The notes beneath the pieces are model-generated. The model saw only the letters and a list, made by a program, of their open reading frames with translations. It had not been told where the DNA came from and searched no databases. 64,000 nucleotides of DNA from assembly GCA_004297825.1 (NCBI GenBank), contig SCSX01000036.1:1-64000 (forward strand), written 5' to 3'. The translations under genes and the position numbers were made by a program. Each line of letters opens with the position of its first letter. Positions within the stretch are counted from its first letter, which is position 1. This document shows positions 1,306 through 54,622 of this stretch, piece by piece. Origin of the DNA: Spirochaetota bacterium. Lineage in GTDB: Bacteria > Spirochaetota > UBA4802 > UBA5368.

Positions 1306-1823
1306 AGCAGGTCCTCCAGGTTGGTGATTCCCCGCGCGCGGAAATGTTCCGTAAGGCGACGTACTGCCAGTCCAAAGCGGTACTTGGCCTGTCGCTCGGA
1401 CATGCCCAGTTGCGCGCCCGCCTCGCGGTAGGTGAAGTCATAGCTCGCCACGAGTTCGAAGAGGACGCGATCGTTTTCGTCAATGAAGTTGGCTTCGCTT
1501 TCCAGGGCTTCCTTTATCATGAGCCTGGTGTCCCGGAAACCGTTTACAAAGACCACTCCCAGGTCGTCCATTTCCCCCTCGGTGAGGTCCGGCTTTTTTT
1601 TCTTCATCATGTCGAATACCACGTTTCTCAACGTGCCATAAAGCCAGGTGCGCGGCTCCCGGACCTCACTTGACTTGCCGTGAAACCGGATGAATACCTC
1701 CTGGGCGGCGTCCATGGCGTCATCCGCGTTGCCCAGCTTGGCATAGGCGGTGCTGTAAATGAGCCCATAGTACCGCTCGTAGACGTCGACGAAGAGGTCT
1801 CTCCCTTCAGCGATGCCGGGCAT
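1302..1823 (-). CDS. ECF-type RNA polymerase sigma factor
   Basis: This 173-aa protein has the two-domain layout of extracytoplasmic-function sigma factors. Region 2 is near residues 10-80 (AMDAAQEVFIRFH followed by TWLYGTLRNVV). Region 4 is near 110-165, with a helix-turn-helix in YREAGAQLGMSERQAKYRF. Start ATG 1823 has GGAGAAGG just upstream. It is the first gene of a two-gene unit with the FecR-domain protein that follows. The length and the lack of region 3 fit the ECF group. Its regulon is unknown; the motif pair at 1859-1978 is a candidate autoregulatory target. Confidence 0.88.
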   Translation of the reverse strand: MPGIAEGRDLFVDVYERYYGLIYSTAYAKLGNADDAMDAAQEVFIRFHGKSSEVREPRTWLYGTLRNVVFDMMKKKKPDLTEGEMDDLGVVFVNGFRDTRLMIKEALESEANFIDENDRVLFELVASYDFTYREAGAQLGMSERQAKYRFGLAVRRLTEHFRARGITNLEDLL

Positions 1824-1858
1824 GGCCTTCTCCAGATAAGTAGATTGAGGGGGTTTTT

Positions 1859-1978
1859 AGGGACAATATTTTTTTCCTGATTGCGCTTTTTGGCGGCGCA
1901 TTGTTACAACATACAACGTTCTCGATTTATCAGGGCGTAAGAAAAAATCAATCATTAAAATATTCTTTGTCCCTTTAA
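1859..1978. promoter_or_regulatory. Facing copies of an AATATT..GTCCCT motif between divergent genes
   Basis: The region between the sigma/FecR unit (minus) and the FecR lipoprotein (plus) holds a similar block on each strand, each pointing toward its own gene. On the minus strand, 1877-1859 reads AAAAATATTGTCCCT. On the plus strand, 1957-1974 reads AAAATATTCTTTGTCCCT. The blocks differ by a 4-nt spacer. The minus copy ends about 35 nt before the sigma start and the plus copy about 85 nt before the lipoprotein start. Such a pair could be ECF-dependent promoter elements or a regulator site; this is inference from sequence symmetry. Confidence 0.4.
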
Positions 1979-2058
1979 TTATTCTTGTTCAACTTATGGT
2001 AGTCGGGTTCACTATTTCACAGGGCCCTGATTATTTCATGCATTGAAGAGGTGTTGCC

Positions 2059-2937
2059 ATGAAGAGAAGTATATGCGCACTGTCGGGAATTCTTGCCCTT
2101 ACACTTGCGATATCGTGCGCGAGGGAAGGAGCGGTTACCCCTGTAGTAGTGCTCGCCGTGGGAGACGTCCAGGTGAAAGCCTTGGAGGGAGAGTATACTC
2201 CGGCTAAAGTATCGCGAGTAATTGTGAAAGGGGACGTAATAAAAACGGGGCCGCTGTCGCACGTTACCATCCAGATGGGCGAACGCGGGATCGTGCAGGT
2301 CCTGCCGAACAGCAGCATTGAGGCGGTCACACTTTTTGAATCCGGGGAAAGCGAGCTGAACCTTTTCCACGGCACGGTGCTTTCAAGGATCGACAAGCTT
2401 GGCAAATCGGAGGATTTCCGGGTGAAGACCCCCACCGCCATCGCCGCGGTGCGCGGAACGATCTTCAGCGTCTCGTATGATCGCGGGACGGGAACCGTAG
2501 GCGTGTCCAGGGGTAGGGTAGAGGTGACCGAAACCGTCTCCGGGAAGGCCGGGGAGGTGACACAGGGGAAAGCCGTTGATGTAAAAGCCGGAATCACGGC
2601 GCGCGGCCTCACAAAAACGGAATCACTCGTGTTGAGCAAGGCCGAGGCGGTAAACTATATCGAGGGGATTCGGACAATGGCGCCGGGAGCGCTGGAGGAG
2701 AAGGGCAAATCATTCCTGCCTGCGCTCGAGAAGATAGACGAGGAAATCAAGGATCCTCCCCCCGCGACCATGGAGGAGATAAAGGCAAAATACGGTCGCA
2801 TAGACGTGGTGACCCTTTACTCCGGGAAGGTATACCGGGGCGCCATCATAAGCCGCGGCGCCATTCTTAGAATACGCACGACCGAGGGGACGGTGGAGGT
2901 GCCGAACGAGAAGGTGAAGAGCACGGTAACGCAGTGA
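2059..2937 (+). CDS. FecR-domain lipoprotein
   Basis: This 292-aa protein begins with a lipoprotein signal peptide (hydrophobic residues 5-19, lipobox LAISC, Cys at about 20). A FecR-type domain follows at about 35-175 (VIVKGDVIKTG, then AAVRGTIFSVSYD). The last 60 residues contain KYGRIDVVTLYSG and RGAIISRGA, matching the C-terminus of the FecR protein at 181-1305. It is therefore a paralogue of that anti-sigma partner, but exported and lipid-anchored rather than membrane-spanning. It is divergent from the sigma/FecR operon. A role as a second sensor or periplasmic partner is an inference. Confidence 0.8.
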   Translation: MKRSICALSGILALTLAISCAREGAVTPVVVLAVGDVQVKALEGEYTPAKVSRVIVKGDVIKTGPLSHVTIQMGERGIVQVLPNSSIEAVTLFESGESELNLFHGTVLSRIDKLGKSEDFRVKTPTAIAAVRGTIFSVSYDRGTGTVGVSRGRVEVTETVSGKAGEVTQGKAVDVKAGITARGLTKTESLVLSKAEAVNYIEGIRTMAPGALEEKGKSFLPALEKIDEEIKDPPPATMEEIKAKYGRIDVVTLYSGKVYRGAIISRGAILRIRTTEGTVEVPNEKVKSTVTQ

Positions 2938-3021
2938 CGGGTTGATTGAGACGATAGCCAAGATCAATTACAGAATTTTTAAATATACGGGGATCCTGTA
3001 CTTGAGACGACGCGGAGGATT

Positions 3022-3276
3022 CTAGGTGTACGCGTCCTTTCGGTGGCGCACATGCATCACCGTGACGACACGGGCATCATCGTCGATCTGATATATGACG
3101 CGATAGTCCCCGATACGAATTCGGTACGAAGATATGGTGTCCACCAGCTTACGGGAACCCTGTGGACGCGGATCGCCGCCTAGCAGTTCAATTTATTCGA
3201 GAATACGGCGGTAGTGTTGACGGTCGATGTGCTTGAAGTCCTTCTCGACCGCAGAAGAGACTATAATCTCGTACAT
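3022..3276 (-). pseudogene. RelE/ParE-family toxin gene with an internal stop
   Basis: Reading leftward from ATG 3276, the frame encodes a RelE-like toxin of 84 codons (MYEIIVSSAVEKDFKHID at the start; SYRIRIGDYRVIYQID in the core). It ends with TAG at 3022-3024. Codon 28 (3193-3195) is TAA, where a sense codon would link ILE to IELLGGDP. Everything after the stop remains in frame and well conserved in pattern, so the damage looks like one recent substitution. The antitoxin gene ends 4 nt upstream. The product should be a 27-aa stub unless the stop is suppressed or is a sequencing error. Confidence 0.8.
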
Positions 3277-3280
3277 GTAA

Positions 3281-3457
3281 CTATTTAATACGCTTTTTCA
3301 ATTCTGCAAGCGAAATGGTGCCGGCGTCCCGACGCTCCGCGATCACTGCGAGGTCGTGGATGTCTTCCAGAAGCTCATGGTATTCATCGATGGGTAGAAT
3401 CACTGCGCTCTTTTCGCCATTCTTGTCGATGATATATTGTTCATGGCGTGTCTGCAT
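3281..3457 (-). CDS. Phd/YefM-like antitoxin
   Basis: This 58-aa protein starts MQTRHEQYIIDKNGEK and continues SAVILPIDEYHELLEDI. That is the N-terminal DNA-binding pattern of Phd/YefM/RelB-type antitoxins, followed by a helical toxin-binding tail ending AELKKRIK. ATG 3457 is chosen because AGGAAAGGAA lies at proper distance; an upstream in-frame start at 3493 lacks such a site. The gene sits 4 nt before the broken RelE-like toxin, the usual antitoxin-first order. With the toxin truncated, the antitoxin would now act only as a DNA-binding protein. Confidence 0.75.
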   Translation of the reverse strand: MQTRHEQYIIDKNGEKSAVILPIDEYHELLEDIHDLAVIAERRDAGTISLAELKKRIK

Positions 3458-3628
3458 ATAGTTTCCTTTCCTGTATTGTAATAATATACTCACTGATCCT
3501 CTTCCGCATCAACTCTTTTTCTACTTCAGCCCTCCTACCTCCAGGGATGACAGCGATGCGCCTCTACAAGGAAATCCACGACGAGGAACTGAGCCGCCTT
3601 AAAGGGATGGTAGATTGACACTCGTCGA

Positions 3629-5116
3629 TCACTTGGTCCACCACGACTCAACCTGTTCCCTTAACGACCTGAAAAGCGCTTTCGCTTTTTCCAACAGGTA
3701 AAACCCTTCATCCTGTTTCCCGTCCACCGATCGAGGCTCGATAACGGGAATTTCCCGCACGGTGTTTTTCGACGGGCACGCCGGGCAGTCTTCGGTAAAT
3801 TGAATTTCCTTCCCATGATACTCGACCGGGTAGCGCAGGTCTCCCGTGTACCTGCCAATCATTCCCTGGTATTCACTCTGCGGGTAGAAATACGCGATTT
3901 TCGAAAAATAATACCGTGAGGTCTCCTGCGCGCCGATAAGGCCGAATCCCTGCGCGATCCGCCAGAGGAGCATGTCTGCATCGGGCGCGGTGACGGTCAT
4001 GGACAGGGCGGCCTGGAGCATCTTGAGCCCCTCACGGGCCGTGTAGTAATAGGAGGCGAGCCGCGTCCCCTCACGCACCAGCGCATCGTGCTCTCCCGGC
4101 TGGACGGCGACGTGGAACGGCAGCGAGACGATCATGGCGCGCCGGCCCCATGTGTTTGCGAACTCCAGGCGGATGCGGTGCGCGCCGGGATAAAGCCTTC
4201 TCCCGTAGTCCAGGGAATACCTTCCCGGCTTCATGCGCGAGGCCGTGACGGGGATGTTGTCCAGGGTGACACGGATCGTCGAGTCGTCGATATCGACGCC
4301 CGGGGCGCCGGGGTCCAGGAGGAGCATTATCGCGGGCTCGCGGTCTTTGAGCAGATTTTTCAGATAGCCGGTATTCTCCACGCGGCAGTTTATCTGCGCC
4401 CGGGCGGACGGTACGCCGCGCCGGAAGTATTCGGACACGGCATTGAAGTACGCCCCCGCCTCGTGCTCCCGGTACTGCGCGTCGCGCAGGTGGATCGCGT
4501 GGCGCTCGTCGGAGAAAAATCCCGCTTCGCCGATAATACCCGGACACAGGTCGTGCGTCTCCCTGAGCATCATGGACCCCGTTTCGGGAAAGACCGAAAA
4601 GTCGCTGAGCACGCTTCCCCGCGCGTCCATGATGCGATGAAACTCACCCAGGAGCAGGTTTGCAAAATCGAATGACGCGGGGCTCACCCCCGGGCTTCCC
4701 CAGACGAGCACGCACGGGTAATTGACGCCGTCCATGCGTCGCATGGTCCCGTTGTGATGAACGCTAAGGAAAAGGTCCGGGGAAAATTCCCGCGCCATCC
4801 GGACGCGCTCGATGAGCGGAACGTCGAGGTCCTTTTCCCTCGCGAGCGCGACGACCGCGCCGGCGCCTCTGAGCATGGACGCGAGGTGGAGCGAGACCGC
4901 GAGGTTGACCTCTTCCTCGGTGAGGCCGCCCGGCCCGCTGCGGAAGCTGTCCGCCGCGGCCGTTCCCCCGTGCCCGGGATCGATGAATATTTTCTTGCCC
5001 TTGAGCCAGGTGTGGGAGCCCACGGTTATGTTCCCCTGGTATTTTTTTTCGCACGCGGCGAAGACGAGCACACACGCGCACGCGATCAGTAGTTTACGCG
5101 ACCTTAATGGGACCAT
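3629..5116 (-). CDS. N-acetylmuramoyl-L-alanine amidase lipoprotein (Amidase_3)
   Basis: The chosen start (ATG 5116, preceded by GGGAGG) gives a 495-aa lipoprotein: MVPLRSRKLLIACACVLVF, then lipobox FAAC. The amidase_3 fold is visible at about residues 40-240. IFIDPGHGG gives the first zinc His, EEEVNLAVS the Glu, SVHHN the second His, and GEAGFFSD the catalytic Glu. This class cuts the amide between N-acetylmuramic acid and the stem peptide. The remaining C-terminal half has no recognised domain; part looks like helical repeats (TAREGLKMLQAAL). The gene overlaps the end of the MlaF-like ATPase gene by 23 bp, so they are co-transcribed. Confidence 0.85.
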   Translation of the reverse strand: MVPLRSRKLLIACACVLVFAACEKKYQGNITVGSHTWLKGKKIFIDPGHGGTAAADSFRSGPGGLTEEEVNLAVSLHLASMLRGAGAVVALAREKDLDVPLIERVRMAREFSPDLFLSVHHNGTMRRMDGVNYPCVLVWGSPGVSPASFDFANLLLGEFHRIMDARGSVLSDFSVFPETGSMMLRETHDLCPGIIGEAGFFSDERHAIHLRDAQYREHEAGAYFNAVSEYFRRGVPSARAQINCRVENTGYLKNLLKDREPAIMLLLDPGAPGVDIDDSTIRVTLDNIPVTASRMKPGRYSLDYGRRLYPGAHRIRLEFANTWGRRAMIVSLPFHVAVQPGEHDALVREGTRLASYYYTAREGLKMLQAALSMTVTAPDADMLLWRIAQGFGLIGAQETSRYYFSKIAYFYPQSEYQGMIGRYTGDLRYPVEYHGKEIQFTEDCPACPSKNTVREIPVIEPRSVDGKQDEGFYLLEKAKALFRSLREQVESWWTK

Positions 5117-49002: not shown

Positions 49003-50157
49003 ATGAATACATACGACCTGCACAATCTTATGGGAAGGGCGCAGCGAAACGGACGGCAGTGCCGACGGAATTTTTTACTTTCGGCCACCGCGGCGGGGCT
49101 TGCGCTCGCCGGACTATCGTGTGCCGGGGTGACGAGAACCGCCCTGCGCGAATCGGCGGGAGATGAGGGAAAAACGGGTTTGTCGCCGGATGAATACGAA
49201 ATTCTGCGGCTGGCGTCGCTTGCCCCCAGCGGGCACAACACGCAGCCGTGGACGGTCCGCGTCGCGGGAAAGGGAAACTGGATTATCGGCGCGGAAAAAT
49301 CGCGCATGCTCCCGGCGGTGGACCCGGAAAACAGGGAGCTCCTGCTCTCGCTGGGGGCGTTCATGGAAAACCTGGTCGAGGCCGCGGGCGCGCGGGGATT
49401 GAGCGCGGAGTACTCGGTCGTCGCGCGCGGATCGCACGACGCGGAGATACTCGATGTGCGTCTGTCGGGCGGCGCGCGCACCCGCGACACGGACGCGGCA
49501 ATCGTCTCCCGGCGCACGGTGCGCAAGGGGATGCTCCGCGATGAGCTGCGCGGCGCGGATGTCGCGCACCTGTCGGGCGGCGAGCCCGGTTTCATGTTCT
49601 TCACGCCGTCCTCCGCGCAGGGCGCCTGGCTCGCCCAGGCGACCGTAGAAGCGAACCGCGCGCAGGCATGGCGCGACGACGCCCAGACGGAGCTCGCCGA
49701 CTGGATCAGGTGGAGGGATGCGGACGCGAAAAAGCACCGCAACGGTCTCACCCCCGAGGGGATGGAAATAGGGGGACTCGCCGGCTGGTTCGTGCGGAAT
49801 TTCTACGATCGCGGCGACGTGCTCGGGAAGGATTTCCGCGACCGGACCGTCGACATGACGGCCGACCAGGTGAAGAACTGCGGCGGATGGATGCTCCTGG
49901 TTTCAAGCGGCGCATCGATCGCCGAACTTATCGAGACCGGGAGACGCTTTCAGCGTATGCTCCTGCGCGCGCGGGAGCGCATGGTCGCGGTGCACCCGAT
50001 GACGCAGATACTCGAGGAGTCCCCGTGGCGCGGGCAGGCGGTGCGCGCAGTGGGCGCGGAGGGTACGGTGCAGTTCATTCTTCGCACCGGCTATCTTGCG
50101 AAGTACCCGGACCCGGTAAGTTTGCGCAGGCCGGTGGAATGGTTTTTAAAGGCGTAG
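49003..50157 (+). CDS. Nitroreductase-fold (Acg-like) lipoprotein with Tat-type signal
   Basis: This 384-aa protein starts after AAGGAGG at ATG 49003. It has a twin-arginine-like signal (CRRNFLLSATAAGLALAG) ending in lipobox LSC, so export folded with its flavin is likely. The nitroreductase signature LASLAPSGHNTQPW and a C-terminal half with SPWRGQAVRAVG fit the Acg/nitroreductase family, which binds FMN. It is under the TetR operator upstream. The substrate is unknown. Confidence 0.78.
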   Translation: MNTYDLHNLMGRAQRNGRQCRRNFLLSATAAGLALAGLSCAGVTRTALRESAGDEGKTGLSPDEYEILRLASLAPSGHNTQPWTVRVAGKGNWIIGAEKSRMLPAVDPENRELLLSLGAFMENLVEAAGARGLSAEYSVVARGSHDAEILDVRLSGGARTRDTDAAIVSRRTVRKGMLRDELRGADVAHLSGGEPGFMFFTPSSAQGAWLAQATVEANRAQAWRDDAQTELADWIRWRDADAKKHRNGLTPEGMEIGGLAGWFVRNFYDRGDVLGKDFRDRTVDMTADQVKNCGGWMLLVSSGASIAELIETGRRFQRMLLRARERMVAVHPMTQILEESPWRGQAVRAVGAEGTVQFILRTGYLAKYPDPVSLRRPVEWFLKA

Positions 50158-50224: not shown

Positions 50225-50378
50225 GTGCACGACTTCACCGCGCATTACAGTACAGACGGTTCCGGTGTGAAAACGGGACCGGCAGGCCGATTTTTCGCCA
50301 AACTGTTGGTTGACTTTTACGGCATCCGGATAAATCATGCGCTACGCTTCACCGATACACGGCACAGGATATTCCGCA

Positions 50379-51413
50379 ATGTCACCGCATTTCACCAGGA
50401 CCCAGGAGCTCATTCTAAACCGTATCCAGCGCGATATGCCGCTTTCGGCGGACCCGTACGCGGGGCTGGCGGCGGAGCTTGGGCTGGATATAGATGAGCT
50501 TCTCGCGGAGATCCGCACTTTAAAAAGCGCGAACGTCATAAGGAGAATCTCGGCGATCTTCTCGGCGCAGGCGCTCGGCTACTCGTCGAGCCTTGTCGCC
50601 TTCTGCGTTCCCGGGGAAGAGGCGGACGAGGCGGCACGCATCATCAACGCGCACCCCGGGGTGAGCCATAATTACCTGCGGGGGCACCGCTATAACATCT
50701 GGTTCACGCTCGCGGTTCCTCCGGGACAGGCGATCGAGGACCATGCGGGGGTACTCGCGCGGCGGTGCGGCGCCCGGGATTTCCTGGTCCTGAAAAACGA
50801 GGAGATGTTCAAGATTGGCGTGATGCTTGCCGTGGGCGATGCGGAACCGGAAGATGCCCCCCTGGCGGCGAGGCCCGGCGGCGCGAAGAACACGGTCCAG
50901 GGCGAGGACGAGGTCCTCGCGGTCACGCTCCTCCAGACGGACCTTCCGGTCGTGAAAAACCCGTTCGCCAGGCTCGCCGCGGAGCGCGGCGTCGTCATGG
51001 ACCCGGGGCTTCTCGCGCAGACCGGCGAATCGTTCAAGGAGAGGGGCATCATGCGACGGTACGCGGCCGTCCTGCGCCACCAGAACGCGGGCTATCGCGC
51101 GAACGCGATGACGGCATGGAAACTCCCCGTGGCGCGGGAGGCCGAGCTCGTATCGGTCTTCGAAAAATGCCCGCACATCACGCACCTCTACCGGCGCACG
51201 GTATTCCCCGGTCGGTGGGAGCATCCGCTCTTCGCGATGATTCACGCAAAAAGCGACGGGGAGCTGGAAGGTATTATCGGCGCGCTCGCGCGCGAGTCGG
51301 GTCTCGATGATTACCTGGTGCTGAAAAGCCTTAAGGAATACCAAAAGCGGCGGGTCATGTATTTCACGCCGGACTTCGGGAAATGGGCGGAGAAGTATCT
51401 TTCAGGTGTTTAA
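50379..51413 (+). CDS. Fused siroheme decarboxylase AhbA-AhbB
   Basis: This 344-aa protein has two Lrp/AsnC-like halves. The first has YAGLAAELGLDIDELLAEIR, NVIRRISAIFS and GVSHNYLRGHRYNIWFTL, the AhbA pattern. The second has FKERGIMRRYAAVLRHQNAGY and HITHLYRRTVFPGRWEHPLF, the AhbB pattern. AhbA and AhbB jointly decarboxylate siroheme to 12,18-didecarboxysiroheme; they are usually separate subunits. The fusion resembles the NirDL type. ATG 50379 follows AGGA; an upstream start at 50337 is less likely. Confidence 0.85.
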   Translation: MSPHFTRTQELILNRIQRDMPLSADPYAGLAAELGLDIDELLAEIRTLKSANVIRRISAIFSAQALGYSSSLVAFCVPGEEADEAARIINAHPGVSHNYLRGHRYNIWFTLAVPPGQAIEDHAGVLARRCGARDFLVLKNEEMFKIGVMLAVGDAEPEDAPLAARPGGAKNTVQGEDEVLAVTLLQTDLPVVKNPFARLAAERGVVMDPGLLAQTGESFKERGIMRRYAAVLRHQNAGYRANAMTAWKLPVAREAELVSVFEKCPHITHLYRRTVFPGRWEHPLFAMIHAKSDGELEGIIGALARESGLDDYLVLKSLKEYQKRRVMYFTPDFGKWAEKYLSGV

Positions 51414-51436
51414 ACCCGGGTGGCTGCAGTAAATAT

Positions 51437-51464
51437 TTGACAATCGGCCGTTCCTGGGTATAAT
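51437..51464 (+). promoter_or_regulatory. Consensus sigma-70 promoter before the microprotein/ahbC unit
   Basis: TTGACA (51437-51442) and TATAAT (51459-51464), both exact consensus hexamers, are separated by 16 nt. Transcription should begin near 51471 and read two small membrane-protein genes and ahbC. It lies in an AT-rich stretch unlike the flanking genes. Confidence 0.85.
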
Positions 51465-51495
51465 TAGACATAGAATGGATTAGTACCGAGGTTTT

Positions 51496-51672
51496 ATGAA
51501 CAATGCACAATTGATTAATCTGAGCTTGATAATTATAGGCATCTCGGGAAGCATTTATGCCCTCTATTCGATATTTATCCGGGTTGTCAGGCGTGAAATA
51601 GCGAACACGGTTAAAAGCAATCTCCTCGAATTGAAGGGACAGATCAAGATTCAGAATGCAAATCATCGATAA
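51496..51672 (+). CDS. 58-aa membrane microprotein 1
   Basis: ATG 51496 has GAGG 4 nt upstream. The protein is 58 aa: an N-terminal hydrophobic helix at residues 6-29 (LINLSLIIIGISGSIYALYS) and a basic/amphipathic C-terminal tail (VVRREIANTVKSNLLELKGQ). The stop overlaps the next small gene by 17 nt. It is too short for most gene finders. Function is unknown; being first after a consensus promoter and upstream of ahbC makes real expression likely. Confidence 0.6.
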   Translation: MNNAQLINLSLIIIGISGSIYALYSIFIRVVRREIANTVKSNLLELKGQIKIQNANHR

Positions 51673-51826
51673 ACTGATCGTCCTGTCCGCGATTCTGACC
51701 ATCTCCCTCGCCGTTTATTATGTTCTGTATTTTTATACGAGCGACGTGGTAGTAAACTTGCTGGCAGTGATTATCGGGATAGCCGGTTTTTTGCTCGGGC
51801 TGCTTGAATTTATCAGGAAAAAATAG
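51656..51826 (+). CDS. 56-aa membrane microprotein 2
   Basis: The frame begins inside the last codons of microprotein 1 (ATG 51656) and ends with TAG at 51826, 7 nt before ahbC. It has two hydrophobic helices (KLIVLSAILTISLAVYYVLY; VVVNLLAVIIGIAGFLLGLL) with a short loop, ending FIRKK. Overlap with the preceding gene implies coupling. No homologous family is recognised. Together the pair resembles a small membrane-anchored complex. Confidence 0.55.
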   Translation: MQIIDKLIVLSAILTISLAVYYVLYFYTSDVVVNLLAVIIGIAGFLLGLLEFIRKK

Positions 51827-51833
51827 GAACGCC

Positions 51834-53105
51834 ATGATCGATATAGGAAAACTCTACTGCGGGGGATCATCAACGGGCGACGGACTGCGCTACGGCACCG
51901 AGGCGCACGGCGACGCGCACGGGAACGCCCCGCACCAACGGCAGGTGCTCGCGAGCGAGCGCAGGCCCATCATTGTCTGGAGCACGACGCGCAGCTGCAA
52001 CCTGAACTGCGTACACTGCTACACGGACTCCGATAACCGGAAGTACGACGGCGAGCTCACCACAAGCGAGGGGCTCGCGCTCGTGGACGGCCTGGCGGAG
52101 TTCGGCATCCCCTCGCTCCTGTTCTCGGGCGGGGAGCCCCTCATGCGCAAGGACCTCTTCACGCTCATCGAGCGCGCCACGGAAAGGCGGATCCGGCCGG
52201 TAATTTCCACCAACGGCACGCTCATCGACCGCGACGCCGCGCGCGCAATCAAGGACTCGGGCGTGGTGTACGTGGGCATAAGCCTGGACGGGATGGAGGG
52301 CGTGAACGACAAATTCCGCGGCGTCAAGGGCGCGTTCACCCGCGCGATGAAGGGGTTCGAGAACTGCATCGCCGTGGGCCAGCGCGTGGGGCTGCGCCTT
52401 ACCCTGACGAAACGCAACTACGAGGACCTTGACGGGATCTTCGATTTCATCGAGCGCGAAAAAATCAACAGGGCGTGCTTCTACCACCTGGTCTATTCGG
52501 GACGGGGGGGCAATCTTTACGCGGACGATCTCACGCACCGCGAGTCCCGCGCGGCCATGGACACCATACTGGAAAGGACCCAGGATTACTTCAACCGCGG
52601 GCTCGATATCAACATCCTCACCGTGGACAATCATGCCGACGGGGTGTACATCTACCTGAAGCTCAGGGAGAAGAATACCGCGCGTGCGGAAGAGGTTCGC
52701 GAACTGCTCACGTGGAACGGGGGCGGCGCGCATTCGACCGGGGTGGGAATCGGCAACATCGACTTCGTGGGAAACGTGCACCCGGACCAGTTCTGGCAGG
52801 ACTATACCCTTGGCAATATCCGCGCGCGCAGCTTCGCCGACATCTGGATGGACGAGGGCGAGCCCCTCATGAAGGGCCTCAAGCACAAGGCCGACTACAT
52901 CAAGGGGCGCTGCCGCGTGTGCGCCCACCGCGCGCTCTGCACGGGGGCCATGCGTGTCCGGGCGTATCGCACCTTTGGCGACCCGTGGGCGCCGGACCCG
53001 CAGTGCTTTATCAGCGACGAGGAGATCGGGCTCGACGAAAAGAAGAAAAACGAGCTTCGCGCGTGCGGGGAGGAGTTTTCCGTGCCCGAGGAGCTTAAGC
53101 GGTAG
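51834..53105 (+). CDS. ahbC: AhbC 12,18-didecarboxysiroheme deacetylase (radical SAM)
   Basis: This 423-aa protein has an N-terminal IGKLYCGG...GDGLRYG segment, CNLNCVHC (Cys 55, 59, 62), SGGEPLMRKDLF, STGVGIGNIDFVGNVHPDQF, and the C-terminal cluster site CRVCAHRALCTGAMRVRAY. These are characteristic of AhbC/NirJ-type enzymes, which remove acetate side chains from didecarboxysiroheme to give Fe-coproporphyrin III. It follows two microprotein genes on one transcript. GGA precedes ATG 51834. Confidence 0.87.
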   Translation: MIDIGKLYCGGSSTGDGLRYGTEAHGDAHGNAPHQRQVLASERRPIIVWSTTRSCNLNCVHCYTDSDNRKYDGELTTSEGLALVDGLAEFGIPSLLFSGGEPLMRKDLFTLIERATERRIRPVISTNGTLIDRDAARAIKDSGVVYVGISLDGMEGVNDKFRGVKGAFTRAMKGFENCIAVGQRVGLRLTLTKRNYEDLDGIFDFIEREKINRACFYHLVYSGRGGNLYADDLTHRESRAAMDTILERTQDYFNRGLDINILTVDNHADGVYIYLKLREKNTARAEEVRELLTWNGGGAHSTGVGIGNIDFVGNVHPDQFWQDYTLGNIRARSFADIWMDEGEPLMKGLKHKADYIKGRCRVCAHRALCTGAMRVRAYRTFGDPWAPDPQCFISDEEIGLDEKKKNELRACGEEFSVPEELKR

Positions 53106-53232: not shown

Positions 53233-53538
53233 ATGGACATTGTTTTCGGCAATACTGTGGTCAGAAAAATATGCCAGAATGCGGTTGGAAAACTGAAAAG
53301 GCGTCTTGATGACATCAGAGATGCGGATACCATGGAGGTTCTGCTCACCCTGCCGGGGCGCTGCCACGCCCTCGTTGGAAACAGGAAGGGCCAATGGGCA
53401 ATGGACGCGGAGCATCCCAGGCGTCTAATTTTCAGACCACTCGGAAATCCCTTGCCCGTGTCGAAAGACGGACGAATTGATTTAAAGCTGATAACCGCGA
53501 TAGAAGTTATCGACGTGGAGGATTATCATGGTAAATAG
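53233..53538 (+). CDS. higB: HigB/RelE-type toxin
   Basis: This 101-aa protein has a RelE-like layout: KLKRRLDDIRDADTMEVLL, the HALVGNRKGQWAMDAE segment, and RLIFRPLG. It would cleave mRNA on the ribosome. It is followed by the HTH-type antitoxin, the inverted (toxin-first) order typical of HigBA. The two genes overlap by 11 bp. The AT-rich composition differs from the heme genes on both sides. Confidence 0.8.
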   Translation: MDIVFGNTVVRKICQNAVGKLKRRLDDIRDADTMEVLLTLPGRCHALVGNRKGQWAMDAEHPRRLIFRPLGNPLPVSKDGRIDLKLITAIEVIDVEDYHGK

Positions 53539-54622
53539 AATGATTAACGAATATAATCCGGAAACAGTAACCCATCCGGGCGAGACCCTCAACGATGTGT
53601 TGGAAGAAAAGGGAATGTCCCAGGCGGAGCTTTCCGAAAGGACAGGCCGCCCTAAAAAAACGATAAATGAAATAATAAAGGGAAAGACGTCAATTACCGC
53701 TGAAACCGCGATTCAATTTGAGAGGGTTCTGGGAATTCCCGCGTCTTTCTGGAATAACCGGCAAAGAAGATTCGATGAATTCGTTGCGCAGAAAGCGGAG
53801 GGAGACAAGCTGCTGAAACACCGGCAATGGATAAAAACCTTGCCGATAAAAGAGATGATTTCAAATAACTGGCTTCCCGCCATAAAACAGGAAAAAGCGC
53901 TGTTAAACGAGGTTTTTAAGTTCTTTGGGATCAACTCGCCGGACGAATGGACTTCCGTATGGGACAAACCTTCCATTGTATATCGACAGTCAAAAGCATT
54001 CACTAAAAATCCAATAGCGACATCGGTATGGTTGAGGGCTGGTGAAATTGAGGCTCAGAAAATACAATGTAAACCCTTTGATAGAACTCGATTTAAGATT
54101 ATTTTGAATCAAATAAAGCCTTATACCAGGGAAGTGCCGGATCTCTTCGCAGAAAAAATGATCGAAATGTGCGCCGCAACCGGTATAGCTTTAGTTTTTG
54201 TACCTCCATTAAAAGGTGTTCCCGTGTATGGTGTGACAAGGTGGCTTAATCCCGAAAGGGCGCTTATTCAATTGAGCCTGCGTGGAAAATACGAGGATAT
54301 TTTCTGGTTCACGTTTTTTCATGAGGCAGGGCATATTCTTCTGCACGGCAAGCGGGATGTATTCATTGAATCAAATATCGAAAATAATTCGAAGGAAAAC
54401 GAAGCTGACAGTTTTGCCAGGGATATTCTGATACCACAAGAAGAATGGGAGAAGTTCATCCAGGCGAATATTTTCTCAGCAGAAAAAATTAAGACATTCG
54501 CGAAGGAGATGAATATATCACCTGCGATTGTAGTGGGACGACTGCAACATGAGCGCAAGATCGCATTTGCCCAGTTGAATGGCCTGAGAAGGAAATATGA
54601 ATTATCTTCCAACGATCAATAA
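53528..54622 (+). CDS. HigA antitoxin with HTH and ImmA/IrrE-type metalloprotease domain
   Basis: This 364-aa protein starts after GGAGG. An XRE-type HTH spans about residues 18-75 (GMSQAELSERTGRPKKTINE). A C-terminal zinc-metalloprotease-like domain follows with HEAGHILLH at 265-273 and a downstream Glu in NEADSFARDILIP. Many HigA proteins lack this domain; here it is a fused form. The stop is 4 nt before the dehydrogenase gene. Confidence 0.82.
   Translation: MVNRMINEYNPETVTHPGETLNDVLEEKGMSQAELSERTGRPKKTINEIIKGKTSITAETAIQFERVLGIPASFWNNRQRRFDEFVAQKAEGDKLLKHRQWIKTLPIKEMISNNWLPAIKQEKALLNEVFKFFGINSPDEWTSVWDKPSIVYRQSKAFTKNPIATSVWLRAGEIEAQKIQCKPFDRTRFKIILNQIKPYTREVPDLFAEKMIEMCAATGIALVFVPPLKGVPVYGVTRWLNPERALIQLSLRGKYEDIFWFTFFHEAGHILLHGKRDVFIESNIENNSKENEADSFARDILIPQEEWEKFIQANIFSAEKIKTFAKEMNISPAIVVGRLQHERKIAFAQLNGLRRKYELSSNDQ

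Follow-up and report, generated by a model that had tools for sequence, protein, structure and literature searches.

A candidate toxin-antitoxin-like module of two membrane microproteins inserted between ahbAB and ahbC in a spirochaete genus

Introduction

The toxins of type I and type V toxin-antitoxin (TA) systems such as Hok, TisB and GhoT are 30–60 amino acids long and span the membrane once or twice, and their antitoxin is an RNA or an RNase. To our knowledge, wherever a TA pair has a small membrane toxin, the antitoxin is an RNA or a soluble protein. The two genes described here, found in a member of the Spirochaetota, encode products of similar small size and number of spans, but there is no sequence match to these toxins and the antitoxin candidate is a second membrane microprotein encoded together with the first. 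In the type II system PanA-PanT, the PanT toxins are membrane proteins shown to cause depolarisation of the membrane, and the PanA antitoxin carries a Panacea domain (PMC8832971). Our pair is likewise a small two-gene unit in which one partner is, as we propose, a small transmembrane toxin; it differs from PanA-PanT in that both partners are membrane proteins of less than 65 amino acids and neither has a Panacea domain. A two-helix membrane hairpin also serves as an effector part in SLATT and Cap15_TM, which the second protein of the pair weakly resembles at the profile level, but SLATT and Cap15_TM belong as domains to defence systems that are larger or have several genes and that include sensor or enzyme components, and the pair has no such component.

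Results

In the 64-kb stretch of DNA that we analysed (the window), a unit of 420 nt (51,414–51,833, forward strand) lies between the heme genes ahbAB and ahbC. It carries a sigma70-type promoter (51,437–51,464, forward strand), in which TTGACA (51,437–51,442) and TATAAT (51,459–51,464) are separated by a 16-nt spacer; this 12/12 match is the sole promoter match of at least 11/12 in the window on both strands. ORF1 (51,496–51,672, 58 codons) and ORF2 (51,656–51,826, 56 codons) follow on the same strand with a 17-nt overlap, and the ATG of ahbC, at 51,834, comes 7 nt past the ORF2 stop. The GC content of the insert is 42.6%, vs 62.5% for ahbAB and 63.4% for ahbC. A preliminary description of the locus had pointed out the exact hexamers 16 nt apart, the two overlapping genes that end 7 nt before ahbC and the AT-richness relative to the heme genes, and all of these were confirmed. 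No direct repeat flanks the insert, no terminator-like site was found in the 7-nt gap between ORF2 and ahbC, and a search for structured RNAs across 46–57 kb of the window gave no Rfam match.

The upstream neighbour, which stands outside the module, is a fused ahbA-ahbB gene for siroheme decarboxylase (50,337–51,413, forward strand). This single gene of 358 amino acids scored above the NCBIfam cut-off for both parts (AhbA 218 bits, AhbB 197 bits), and fused genes also appear among the other ahb loci read in the order. Just before it in the heme cluster there is a gene for a nitroreductase-like protein with an RR-type signal stretch (49,003–50,157). The downstream neighbour is a radical SAM gene of the ahbC/nirJ1 type (51,834–53,105, forward strand; TIGR04054 526 bits, TIGR04546 489 bits, cut-off 650). 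Its product has a higher NirJ1 than AhbC score, with both below the cut-off, so its exact enzyme name is uncertain; we refer to it as ahbC.

One other species of the genus was compared, an uncultured spirochaete represented by a MAG (contig CALMJO010000550.1). It keeps both frames, with 72% identity for ORF1 and 77% for ORF2, the same overlap and the same position before ahbC, which itself is 84% identical in nucleotide sequence. The sister carries TTGACA-16-TATATT at the place equivalent to the promoter, and its insert is 426 nt long vs 420 nt in the window. The dN/dS values between window and sister were 0.19 for ORF1 and 0.07 for ORF2, and therefore both appear to be under purifying selection. 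Non-coding or chance ORFs were ruled out by these values together with the conservation in the sister, which indicates that ORF1 and ORF2 are real genes. The preliminary description would have been contradicted by missing conservation in relatives or by frame decay in the sister; both ORFs turned out to be conserved there and both frames to be intact.

ORF1 encodes a single-span membrane microprotein of 58 amino acids with a basic cytoplasmic tail, and ORF2 a two-span helical hairpin of 56 amino acids. The AlphaFold model of ORF1 is one long helix (residues 3–56, pLDDT 91), and that of ORF2 is a hairpin (H3–27/H31–54, pLDDT 81). Across the family described below, ORF1 members are 36–58 amino acids long, with one transmembrane segment in 45/45 and a tail of net charge +2.7; ORF2 members are 51–61 amino acids long, with two transmembrane segments in 43/45 and a basic C-terminus, the consensus end being F-F-R-K-K. 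The products had been described beforehand as hydrophobic and without a recognisable family, and this held: with one and two transmembrane segments, they had no fitting family in Pfam, PHROGs, NCBIfam, PADLOC or PDB, matches in the first three staying below cut-off. In particular, no Pfam or NCBIfam match above cut-off linked them to a described toxin or antitoxin family, and neither the PDB sequence search nor Foldseek of the ORF2 hairpin returned anything informative. ORF2 members gave weak matches to Cap15_TM (3 members), SLATT, DRT-associated SLATT and a 4TM effector (E 0.002–0.08 across many tests), the best for ORF2 being 0.0097 in Pfam (Cap15_TM) and 0.0021 in PADLOC (4TM effector). These 4TM effector and Cap15_TM values may reflect hydrophobicity alone, and for the ORF2 family no profile match to SLATT or Cap15_TM effectors was significant.

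Profiles made from the first members picked up distant pairs, first in other families and then in Spirochaetota at large. Profile matches at E ≤0.01 were obtained in 36 of the 393 genomes of the phylum, strong ones in fewer; beyond Spirochaetota the search covered plasmids, phages and viral contigs, and the family may also occur outside the phylum. At 47 of the 52 ORF2 loci examined, ORF1 immediately precedes ORF2, at a spacing of −17 to +13 nt save for one broken copy and most commonly with a 4-nt overlap, and the pairing appears obligatory. The copies occupy unrelated surroundings with varied neighbouring genes. There is one copy in the window genome, while other genomes have up to a dozen profile matches (12 in G221, 11 in G132, and 7 each in G193 and G095), and the seven copies of G095 are scattered all round its near-complete 4.38-Mb chromosome. 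The pair was not found on plasmids, in 50,697 phage records or in IMG/VR. Phage or plasmid cargo, having no match among plasmids, phages and viral contigs, was rejected, and because no plasmid or phage copy was found, mobility of the unit is deduced from its distribution only.

Promoter-like matches of at least 10/12 were present within 90 nt upstream of ORF1 in 18 of the 47 pairs (shuffled sequences: mean 1.6, maximum 5). In several copies of the G095 type the −35 element begins 34–35 nt before the ATG, and their mRNA would therefore be nearly leaderless. The distances among ORF1 and among ORF2 sequences correlate over all members (r = 0.58), and also among copies inside single genomes (r = 0.81, 0.75, 0.41 and 0.26; permutation p = 0.003, 0.006, 0.03 and 0.06). 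As judged from these distances, species history alone cannot explain the within-genome co-divergence.

At one place the pair is similar to integron cassettes, including TA cassettes, that have their own promoters: the copy at G221:C205 forms a unit of 434 bp that is bounded by palindromic repeats and belongs to an array of small genes. There are four of these repeats (positions 1,090–2,920 of the locus), 57 nt in length and spaced 434–771 nt apart; they separate small paralogous genes and give the locus the look of a cassette array. Palindromes resembling attC occurred at this place only and were absent around the window copy; a simple attC scan found none that were convincing, and no integrase reached its family cut-off. 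Unlike integron cassettes, the window copy has no flanking repeats, and the G221:C205 repeats are no more than attC-like. An integron-cassette origin is possible for the G221:C205 copy but is probably not a general one.

ORF2 was stopped, shifted or truncated beside an open ORF1 in six loci (L126, L142, L149, L155, L163 and L019, the last in G004), and in a seventh (L063, in G039) ORF2 was missing and ORF1 intact. No intact ORF2 beside a broken ORF1 was seen in the survey, which was made mainly with the ORF2 profile. This bias of 7 vs 0 (sign test p = 0.016; small numbers, draft genomes) suggests that cells do not tolerate, or have no use for, an ORF2 that lacks its ORF1. Part of the one-sided decay could come from translational coupling or from errors in sequencing.

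Small ORFs were found near pairs in 73/185 cases vs 38/175 in control stretches (p = 0.0004). Genes of TA families (PIN, MNT/HepT, BrnT/BrnA, HigB, ParE, Phd, CopG and others) numbered about 12–15 near pairs vs 2–3 in controls (p = 0.002–0.03), these counts being ranges because one protein can match two TA families, and the controls being a small set of stretches from largely the same genomes with a choice of contigs that was not strictly random. The window itself has a TA-type pair in the heme cluster: a second AT-rich insertion (53,233–54,622, forward strand; 44% GC), with its own promoter-like site, lies between ahbC and the precorrin-2 dehydrogenase gene (54,627) and encodes a HigB-like/HigA-M78 pair (the cut-offs were passed for HTH_3 and Peptidase_M78, and the HigB match was weak, E 0.02). 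In the sister, too, ahbC is followed by this pair; next to it is a gene for a Type ISP restriction-modification enzyme (positions 1,477–4,623 of the locus), in the place that the siroheme gene has in the window. The microprotein pair and the HigA-type TA pair, with the Type ISP enzyme in the sister, therefore mark the ahb cluster of this genus as an apparent insertion spot for such modules.

ahbC is present in 37 of the 45 genomes of the order, and the pair is found there in only 2. Thirty of the ahbC loci were inspected in detail, and in 18 of these the ahbAB and ahbC genes overlap by 4–17 nt; three genomes from the same family as the window (G002, G005 and G007) are among the 18. Some other relatives have gaps of 14–148 nt, in one (G012) the junction holds some 500 nt of repeats and no pair, and the sequence of another (G003) is masked there. 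Among the relatives compared, the 420-nt insert of 43% GC is limited to the genus of the window, for which the best explanation is that one copy inserted between ahbAB and ahbC in the ancestor of the genus. The preliminary description had considered three roles for the pair, and cargo of an insertion is the one that agrees with these comparisons, as ahbAB and ahbC, closely joined in relatives, are separated here by an AT-rich unit that carries a promoter and also occurs elsewhere in the phylum. The other two, anchoring of Ahb enzymes in the membrane and delivery of heme, would fit the cluster position conserved in both known species of the genus and the likely co-expression with ahbC, given that the ORF2 stop is 7 nt away. 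However, the other ahbC-bearing relatives that were read have no pair at the ahb locus, ahbAB simply overlapping ahbC in 18 of 30, and homologous pairs elsewhere sit at heme-unrelated places without heme neighbours. A heme-specific role was rejected on this position and distribution, and we regard it as very improbable. The ahbC gene is probably co-transcribed from the promoter of the module, which would drive it in part.

Discussion

It is highly probable that the pair is a self-contained module that is not related to heme, and the best explanation of its distribution is that the module spreads and is maintained among spirochaete genomes whatever genes lie next to it. Our main reading, with a probability of roughly 0.45, is a TA-like mobile two-gene module in which ORF2 is membrane-active and ORF1 is its membrane-bound restrainer. 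As in TA pairs, two small adjacent genes form one unit (47/52 loci, with co-transcription predicted from the promoter-like sites upstream of ORF1), the putative toxin gene is not kept without the putative antitoxin gene and decays first (7 vs 0 cases, small numbers), and the distribution is patchy, dispersed and multi-copy (36/393 genomes, up to 12 matches each). We file the pair as one that would work like a TA pair outside any described TA family. In the mechanism that we propose, a short, strongly promoted unit encodes ORF1 and then ORF2, and ORF1, whose one membrane-spanning helix carries a basic amphipathic tail, would be made first from the shared short mRNA. ORF1 would pair with ORF2 inside the membrane and hold it in check, whereas the ORF2 hairpin alone would harm the membrane, e.g., through an oligomeric pore. 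If the unit were lost or ORF1 failed, ORF2 would be freed, and in this way the unit would maintain itself or be of use against phages. For the toxicity of ORF2 itself we see a little less than an even chance. More tentative is the proposal that the pair represents an undescribed TA or defence module in which two membrane microproteins, a hairpin that forms pores and a single-span antitoxin, act on each other inside the membrane, present in many divergent copies in one phylum.

Obligatory pairing, co-divergence and strong constraint would fit any two-subunit complex, and the positive-inside charge pattern fits a stable hetero-oligomer. The pair could accordingly be a harmless and beneficial membrane complex, such as a small channel, a transporter regulator or a stress-response pair, that has been duplicated and shared horizontally; ORF2 would then never be kept alone because it needs ORF1 for stability or insertion. 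We consider this unlikely, though worth keeping in mind, as the patchiness, the up to 12 divergent matches per genome, the TA-rich neighbourhoods and the one-sided decay are more typical of selfish or conflict modules. The multiple copies and their fast divergence would also suit a small anti-phage membrane system (exclusion or abortive infection) whose ORF2 component would open the membrane once a phage infects, with ORF1 sensing or restraining it. The weak matches between ORF2 members and effector domains with two spans (Cap15_TM in three, SLATT, DRT-associated SLATT and the 4TM effector) and the Type ISP restriction enzyme and TA pair beside the module in the sister point in the same direction. 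Yet the effector E-values of 0.002–0.08 come from many tests, defence genes are a minority of the neighbours and no sensor or enzyme part accompanies the pair, and this function seems improbable to us. A pair of small membrane proteins of which the second spans the membrane twice and has a basic C-terminus also recalls a holin/antiholin-type remnant of a prophage lysis cassette. Here we looked for a linked endolysin, phage genes and phage homologues and found none: the copies stand among chromosomal genes, PHROGs matches were only weak, and the 50,697 phage records and IMG/VR contained no homologue. Such an origin has hardly any probability in our judgement.

If the TA-like reading is right, neutralisation would take place between transmembrane helices, unlike that by the RNA or soluble antitoxins of known small membrane toxins. 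A family of proteins of less than 65 residues, encoded at up to a dozen places per genome and unmatched in databases, is easily overlooked by gene callers. The locus described here indicates that modules of this kind can break up a closely coupled operon and may lend a heme gene a promoter.
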